Part shown: in pieces, positions 21,568 through 27,745 of the stretch | How positions within the stretch are numbered: the first letter of the stretch is position 1 | Layout: each line of letters starts with the position of its first letter | Origin: Acidobacteriota bacterium | GTDB lineage: Bacteria > Acidobacteriota > Holophagae > Holophagales > Holophagaceae | Assembly: GCA_016195985.1 (NCBI GenBank) | Contig: JACPYP010000011.1 | Coordinates: 310,001 to 374,000, forward strand | Length of the DNA stretch: 64,000 nt | Reading direction: 5' to 3' | Translations under genes and position numbers: made by a program | The notes under the pieces: generated by a model | The model's database searches: none | The model's input: only the letters and a program-made list of their open reading frames with translations | Told to the model about the DNA's origin: nothing

Positions 21568-22710
21568 ATGTCTGAGATCGGCTTCACCGTCCCCCGCCCT
21601 GCCCAGCTCCGCCGCTTCGGCCGGGTGTTCTACCCCGCCGGGCTGCGCATGCAGAAGGCCCTGGCGGAGTACGTGAACGAGGAAGGCCGCCCCGACCAGC
21701 TGGTGATCCTGGAGCACGACCCCGTCTTCACGTTGGGCCGCAACGCCACGCCCGCCGACATCCACATGAGCGACGATTTCCTCAAAGCTCAGGGGGTGAG
21801 CGTCCACCGCACGGATCGCGGCGGCGAGGTGACCTACCACGGCCCGGGCCAGATCGTGGCCTACCCCATCTGCAACCTGCGGGGCGGACGCGAAGATGTG
21901 GGCCGGCTGGTGCGCGGGCTCGAAGAGGTGATGATCCGAACTGCGAAGGATTTCGGCGTCACCGCCGACCGCCTCAAGGGCGCGCCGGGCATCTGGGTGG
22001 AGACGGCCAAGTACCGGAAAGGGGGGGGCGTTGAGAAACTAGGCGCCATCGGCCTGCATCTCAGCCGCTGGATCAGCACCCACGGGATCGCCTTCAACGT
22101 GCGGCCGAACCTGGATCACTTCAAATGGATCACGCCCTGCGGCTTCACGGACAAGGGCGTGTGCAGCCTCCACTCCCTGCTGGGCGATGCCGCGCCGAGC
22201 TGGCAGGAAGCTGCGGACCGGCTGCAAATGCACCTCATCGATTGCCTGGCCCTCGACCTTCAACCGGTGCGGGAACCCAGCCGCAGCGTGTCGGCTCTCA
22301 CCTGGCGACACGGCGCTTCGGAGCCGGAAATCCTCATGATGCTGCGGGTGCCGGAACACGGGCACTGGTGGCAGAGCGTCACCGGAATGATGGAGCCGGG
22401 CGAGCAGCCGGAACAGACCGCCCACCGCGAGGTCAAGGAAGAGACAGGCCTGGCGGGGCAGTTGCGGCCCCTGGACCTCGCCCACAGCTTCTGGGTGGAT
22501 CCGGCCATTGTCCGCTTTCCGGACGGAGAGCCGCGCTTCAACACCGAGACCTGCTTCTCCATGGAGGTTGCCGCCGATGCCCCGGTGAACCTGGAACCCT
22601 CGGAGCACAGCGAGTTCCTGTGGTGCGGCCTGGACGAAGCCCAGGAACGCATGAAGTGGGAAGGCTCCAAGGCCGCCGTCGCCCTGCTCCGCCGTCAGCT
22701 GGGACGCTGA
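21568..22710 (+). CDS. lipB: LipB octanoyltransferase fused to a Nudix hydrolase
   Basis: The N-terminal part (about 1-230) is lipoyl(octanoyl) transferase, which moves octanoate from acyl carrier protein to target E2 or GcvH proteins: LEHDPVFTLGRN, RGGEVTYHGPGQ, catalytic Lys157 in EKLGAIGLHLSR and Cys191 in ITPCGF. The C-terminal part (about 240-380) has a complete Nudix box G-x5-E-x7-REVKEETGL (273-295). Around it, WWQSVTGMMEPGE and NTETCF resemble NudB-type dihydroneopterin triphosphate pyrophosphatases. The fusion is in one continuous frame of 380 aa. A run of eight Gs lies inside the LipB domain at 22021-22028. Both activities look intact. Confidence 0.92.
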   Translation: MSEIGFTVPRPAQLRRFGRVFYPAGLRMQKALAEYVNEEGRPDQLVILEHDPVFTLGRNATPADIHMSDDFLKAQGVSVHRTDRGGEVTYHGPGQIVAYPICNLRGGREDVGRLVRGLEEVMIRTAKDFGVTADRLKGAPGIWVETAKYRKGGGVEKLGAIGLHLSRWISTHGIAFNVRPNLDHFKWITPCGFTDKGVCSLHSLLGDAAPSWQEAADRLQMHLIDCLALDLQPVREPSRSVSALTWRHGASEPEILMMLRVPEHGHWWQSVTGMMEPGEQPEQTAHREVKEETGLAGQLRPLDLAHSFWVDPAIVRFPDGEPRFNTETCFSMEVAADAPVNLEPSEHSEFLWCGLDEAQERMKWEGSKAAVALLRRQLGR

Positions 22711-27550: not shown

Positions 27551-27745
27551 TCCGGGGGTTCCGCGCTTCGCGCACACTCCCGGGTCCCCGCGAAGAAGCC
27601 CAGCAAAGCCGGGCTTCTTCTTTCATCCTCCGGGGGTTCCGCGCTTCGCGCATACCCCCGGGCCCCCGCGAAGAAGCCCGGCAAAGCCGGGCTTCTTCTT
27701 TCATCCTCCGGGGGTTCCGCGCTTCGCGCATACCCCCGGGCCCGG
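27551..27745. repeat. 78-bp tandem repeat (2.5 copies) containing terminator hairpins
   Basis: Units begin at 27551, 27629 and 27707 (exact period 78), the third being partial. Each full unit has a GC-rich dyad around GGGGGTTCCGCGCTTCGCGC and a hairpin AAGAAGCCCGGC-AAA-GCCGGGCTTCTT. The hairpins are at 27593-27619 (one mismatch) and 27671-27697 (perfect). Being symmetric, they can end transcription from tolC and from the convergent S9 peptidase gene. The third copy supplies the last codons of the peptidase. Confidence 0.9.
27671..27697. terminator. Bidirectional intrinsic terminator inside the repeat
   Basis: Perfect 12-bp stem with a 3-base AAA loop and T-rich flanks on both sides. It lies between convergent genes, 3 bp beyond the S9 peptidase stop codon. 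Confidence 0.85.

Follow-up and report, generated by a model that had tools for sequence, protein, structure and literature searches.

A single gene in the window, which is the whole stretch of 64,000 nucleotides analysed here from a Holophagaceae member of the Acidobacteriota, joins an octanoyltransferase of the LipB family to a C-terminal Nudix hydrolase domain. The parts of the gene are listed in Table 1, together with three related fusions from other genomes that are treated further below. The sequence-only reading had described one frame of 380 aa holding a complete LipB (Lys157, Cys191) and a Nudix box at residues 273–295, and these positions agree exactly with our own. As judged by reading the window, the gene is situated between a divergent flavoprotein-like gene and a histidine-kinase-like one and has no pathway neighbours. 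Scanning the window for Rfam families and for tRNAs gave nothing that bears on the fusion gene. Just past a TolC-like gene the window also contains a tandem repeat of 78 bp (27551–27743, 2.5 copies, 96% matches).

Table 1. Position of the fused gene and its parts in the window, and of FolP-linked Nudix genes at the loci named.
Feature	Position	Strand	Remarks
lipB-nudix fusion gene	21568..22710	+	single frame from ATG to stop, 380 aa; homologues full length
LipB catalytic domain, residues 25-222, PF21948	21640..22233	+	Pfam LplA-B_cat, E 4e-40
Catalytic Lys157 codon	22036..22038	+	invariant in alignment of 51 fused proteins
Catalytic Cys191 codon	22138..22140	+	invariant in alignment of 51 fused proteins
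Short interdomain linker, about residues 226-238	22243..22281	+	alignment; boundary inferred from model
Nudix domain of NudB type, modelled residues 236-380	22273..22707	+	Pfam NUDIX 252-369, E 1e-16
Nudix box, residues 273-295	22384..22452	+	box glutamates correspond to NudB E47, E56, E59, E60
Glu327, equivalent of NudB Glu100 (docked pterin contact)	22546..22548	+	invariant
His347, equivalent of NudB His118	22606..22608	+	invariant
NudB-type Nudix-FolP fusion, G140 (f32)	L113 7131-8474	-	
NudB-type Nudix-FolP fusion, G151 (f32)	L114 7884-9254	+	
NudB-type Nudix-FolP fusion, G289 (another family)	L136 1480-2832	+	

The N-terminal half passed two LipB models of NCBIfam, TIGR00214 with 143.3 bits (cut-off 83.55) and PRK14345 with 166.9 bits (cut-off 155). 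The Nudix box of the C-terminal half, GMMEPGEQPEQTAHREVKEETGL, is canonical and fits the consensus GX5EX7REUXEEXGU. The structure predicted for the whole chain has a pLDDT of 94.7 and a pTM of 0.91; its top Foldseek match is LipB 2qhs with 36% identity and a TM(target) of 0.94, and the C-terminal part of the model is matched by Nudix enzymes. Among the papers returned by searches of the open literature, titles and abstracts contained no description of a LipB-Nudix or a FolP-Nudix fusion. The architecture, which joins two known enzyme families, is genuine, conserved and apparently undescribed.

We determined the distribution of the fusion among related genomes. The fused gene is present in 73 of 77 Holophagaceae genomes, with 70 matches spanning both domains and three partial ones (G024, G071, G082) that stop at contig ends. 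The four genomes without a match are 69–89% complete, and none of the 77 searched was found to carry lipB and Nudix as separate genes. On Geothrix contigs the gene is found at 83–90% identity, which marks this genome as a relative of Geothrix. A survey across Acidobacteriota, as the sequence-only reading had proposed, located the fusion in six further families (f25, f32, f40, f60, f77 and f83) at about 38–43% identity; plain LipB without Nudix occurs in most Acidobacteriota families having a match. Presence in other families rules out a recent fusion in a single strain. A join produced by sequencing, assembly or frameshift is likewise ruled out, since the fusion is also found in named Geothrix isolates, in unrelated MAGs and in other families. 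Outside Acidobacteriota a pattern scan of the genome collection returned nothing but LipB-only matches; as regards the Nudix half, the patterns used can reach just its close relatives.

Purifying selection acts on each half, with omega in nine pairs at about 0.06–0.15 for the LipB half and 0.08–0.21 for the Nudix half. In 51 aligned fusions R260, W268, T272, G273, E279, R287, E288, E291, E292, E327 and H347 of the Nudix half are invariant. A Holophagaceae relative with a genome reduced to 1.2 Mb (G008) keeps the fusion intact as one of just three Nudix genes. The fused LipB domains were not monophyletic in a quick tree, monophyly not being rejected by these data (p-AU 0.146), and the Nudix tree favours a single origin. 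The fusion is old in Acidobacteriota. It probably arose in one event, the Nudix part having been lost later in some lineages; the trees agree with this without proving it.

The Nudix half had been likened to NudB already from the letters alone, and profile, tree and pocket residues support this likeness. Its best NCBIfam model is PRK09438 (dihydroneopterin triphosphate diphosphatase) with 75.7 bits versus 21 bits for the next model, a score below the model's own cut-off of 103. For fusions of other families PRK09438 is likewise the best model and under the cut-off, and a stand-alone Nudix protein (L115) exceeds it with 141 bits. When other acidobacterial Nudix domains were included in a tree, the LipB-linked ones came out as a single lineage (SH-aLRT 76–80), which falls into a larger clade with E. 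coli NudB, the FolP-fused domains and two stand-alone proteins; support for this clade (SH-aLRT 92–94) is below the value of 95 counted as firm, and the branch of NudB is long. As reference we used the published NudB pocket, in which the pterin contact of Glu100 comes from docking (PMC5526541). The box glutamates as well as Arg29, Thr40, Glu100 and His118 of NudB have equivalents in 33/33 aligned rows, the metal ligand Glu117 in 32/33 and Gln37 in 27/33; Lys7 is not kept. We take the resemblance to NudB to be real.

The sequence-only reading had also suggested looking for nudB elsewhere, and no other NudB-like Nudix was found among the Nudix genes of this genome. The remaining six comprise a NudC (208 bits, over cut-off), one gene without assignment and four assigned through weak matches, of which two are NudE-like, one is MutT-like and one NudL-like. 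The equivalent of Glu100 is absent from all five of them that were aligned.

Structural comparison was less selective: the Z-scores of a Listeria Nudix protein (3son, 20.2), NudB (19.9) and an Ap4A hydrolase (19.6) are tied, so that fold alone does not settle the substrate, and Foldseek ranked Ap4A hydrolases first for the Nudix half. A less likely alternative to a folate role is that this domain sanitises nucleotides in general (dNTP, Ap4A or similar compounds), became fused to LipB by chance and has no part in folate synthesis. E. coli NudB itself was initially reported as a dATP diphosphatase and groups with ApnA hydrolases (PMC5389931), which together with the structural ranking speaks for such a role. 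The invariant equivalent of Glu100 argues against it, the aligned human Ap4A hydrolase having no glutamate at that place, and so do the FolP-Nudix fusions found in relatives.

In these the NudB-type Nudix domain is attached to a folate enzyme, which supports a pterin substrate. The FolP part is a complete dihydropteroate synthase in the two f32 genomes (G140 and G151), with the Nudix domain placed N-terminally. The three FolP-linked Nudix domains do not group together in the tree, and two fusion events may therefore have taken place. Each of the two f32 genomes has a LipB-linked NudB-type domain in addition to the FolP-linked one; the two would be redundant there, and one of them may do something else.

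We also assessed the folate pathway in genomes carrying the fusion. FolE is present in this genome and in 89 of 93 genomes of the class, FolP in 254 of 257 genomes of the phylum, and the reduced genome has both. FolB (PF02152) was detected in one of 34 genomes tested, which is again the reduced one with a canonical FolB (L213, 371–733, plus strand); in Geothrix it was not found. In place of FolB, Geothrix encodes a QueD-type protein, whose motif is CRNLHGH, as well as a divergent member of the PTPS family, whose motif QEDRHGH conforms to the PTPS-III signature ExxHGH (PMC5041015). Copies in other fusion genomes conform to it too. PTPS-III is described as converting 7,8-dihydroneopterin triphosphate (DHNTP) to hydroxymethyldihydropterin, so that it bypasses FolB and requires no DHNTP pyrophosphatase (DHNTPase); for some archaea the monophosphate has been proposed as its substrate (PMC5041015). 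With a PTPS-III-type protein present and FolB absent a DHNTPase is not formally needed, a point that also favours the sanitiser. Most acidobacteria make folate without a close homologue of the fusion's Nudix domain.

In our genome (contig C3) the PTPS-III-type gene with QEDRHGH directly follows a gene for an HD-domain protein (L207, 3983–4333 and 4349–5047, both minus strand). A second DHNTPase, FolQ2, has been proposed among proteins of HD type (PMC1971073), and the adjoining HD-domain gene is a further candidate for this step. The HD-domain partner was not seen beside the PTPS-III-type gene of G072. A third PTPS-family paralogue, which lacks the HGH motif and reads WEGHDY, is encoded on contig C11 of the same genome (L208, 3878–4282, minus strand); it is conserved in the Holophagaceae looked at, with relatives in L212, L215 and L217.

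The genomic surroundings of the fusion outside Holophagaceae point to lipoylation. At two loci (L100, L122) the fusion comes directly after 2-oxoacid dehydrogenase genes for E1alpha, E1beta and E2, at two more (L102, L121) it lies close to E2, and at a fifth (L105) it is followed by LipA; part of L122 and the E2 of L121 were assigned by reading the sequence. This linkage is what LipB would lead one to expect, and it does not point to glycine cleavage, which had been suggested as a bridge between the two halves. GcvH was found in 32 of 33 genomes with or without the fusion, including families without a LipB match; being near universal it does not discriminate between the two kinds of genome and lends no support to a glycine-cleavage bridge. 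The two other families of the class (f2 and f3, e.g. G004, G084, G092) gave no LipB match, and their members tested have GcvH, so a different enzyme must attach octanoyl or lipoyl groups there.

The same neighbours could be read as a sign that the Nudix domain itself serves lipoylation or the adjoining dehydrogenase by clearing stray acyl-AMP, acyl-CoA, FAD or thiamine diphosphate near E2. We consider this improbable, because LipB alone accounts for the linkage and the FolP-Nudix fusions would be left unexplained. LipB takes its octanoyl group from octanoyl-ACP and forms no acyl-AMP, and the clean-up of octanoyl-AMP that had been suggested for the Nudix part found no evidence. Model matches do not favour a service of this kind either: the fusion's matches do not include PRK10707 (NudL, CoA pyrophosphatase), which another gene of this genome (L042) matches weakly, its Nudix domain has no match to the NudJ model, and against a cut-off of 158 bits the NudC (NADH) model gives about 20 in a small number of other fusions only. 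Least probable is a sensor or structural role without catalysis, in which the Nudix domain would regulate LipB and resemble the C-terminal accessory domain of LplA in its position alone: Nudix domains free of catalysis do exist in multidomain proteins (PMC5389931) and the predicted chain is compact, but the conservation of all four box glutamates and of the metal ligand would be unexpected in a dead domain.

In summary, we favour a bifunctional protein combining an octanoyltransferase with a NudB-type pyrophosphohydrolase, most likely a DHNTPase, and give this reading a probability of about one half. As suggested by the complete catalytic residues and by the linkage to E2 and LipA in relatives, the N-terminal LipB half would transfer octanoyl from octanoyl-ACP to lipoyl domains, presumably those of E2 and GcvH. 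In folate synthesis the Nudix half would act on the pterin branch, where it would cleave DHNTP to yield pyrophosphate and the monophosphate, both domains being active in one polypeptide. The folate assignment is favoured by the widespread FolE and FolP, both kept along with the fusion in the reduced genome with its three Nudix genes. Against it stand the PRK09438 score under the cut-off, the lack of conservation of Lys7 and the structural tie, and further the HD-domain candidate, the redundancy in the two f32 genomes, folate synthesis elsewhere without a close homologue and, as the main reason for holding it at one half, the PTPS-III-type protein. A route in which both enzymes take part seems doubtful: a LipB- or FolP-linked Nudix domain would turn DHNTP into DHNMP, on which the PTPS-III-type protein would act in place of FolB acting on dihydroneopterin, and the fusion would tie pterin supply to the capacity for lipoylation. 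Pathway chemistry does not explain why LipB and Nudix are joined. Our simplest guess is co-production of two housekeeping cofactor enzymes.

The assignment of NudB to the DHNTP pyrophosphatase step in E. coli came later than a survey of 2007. In that survey the gene for this step was without assignment in most bacteria (PMC1971073). The LipB-Nudix and FolP-Nudix fusions provide concrete DHNTPase candidates for Acidobacteriota, the former of a kind that would go unnoticed under a LipB annotation. Should the Nudix half prove to be a DHNTPase beside a PTPS-III-type protein, this would indicate a second pterin route or control at a branch point. If it is a sanitiser, the fusion would be a warning against deriving pathway logic from joined domains.

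Compared with known systems, the LipB half shares the fold, the Lys/Cys catalytic pair and the invariant motifs with solved LipB proteins (2qhs, 1w66). E2 and LipA, known as neighbours from the LipB family, likewise lie beside the fusion in several lineages. The solved proteins are single-domain with about 210–220 aa, whereas the fusion adds a Nudix domain at the C-terminus. With NudB/FolQ of E. coli (2o1c, 5u7e) the Nudix half has in common its clade in the best tree (SH-aLRT 92–94), the Nudix box, a WQ(S/P)(V/I)TG motif, the equivalents of Arg29, Thr40, Glu100, Glu117 and His118 and a Z-score of 19.9. It differs in having about 25% identity, no counterpart of Lys7 and an attached LipB and, unlike NudB, it is found in genomes with a PTPS-III-type protein and without FolB. 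The FolP-Nudix fusions of the same phylum likewise combine a NudB-type Nudix domain with an enzyme of cofactor synthesis, the Nudix domain there being N-terminal and the partner dihydropteroate synthase.
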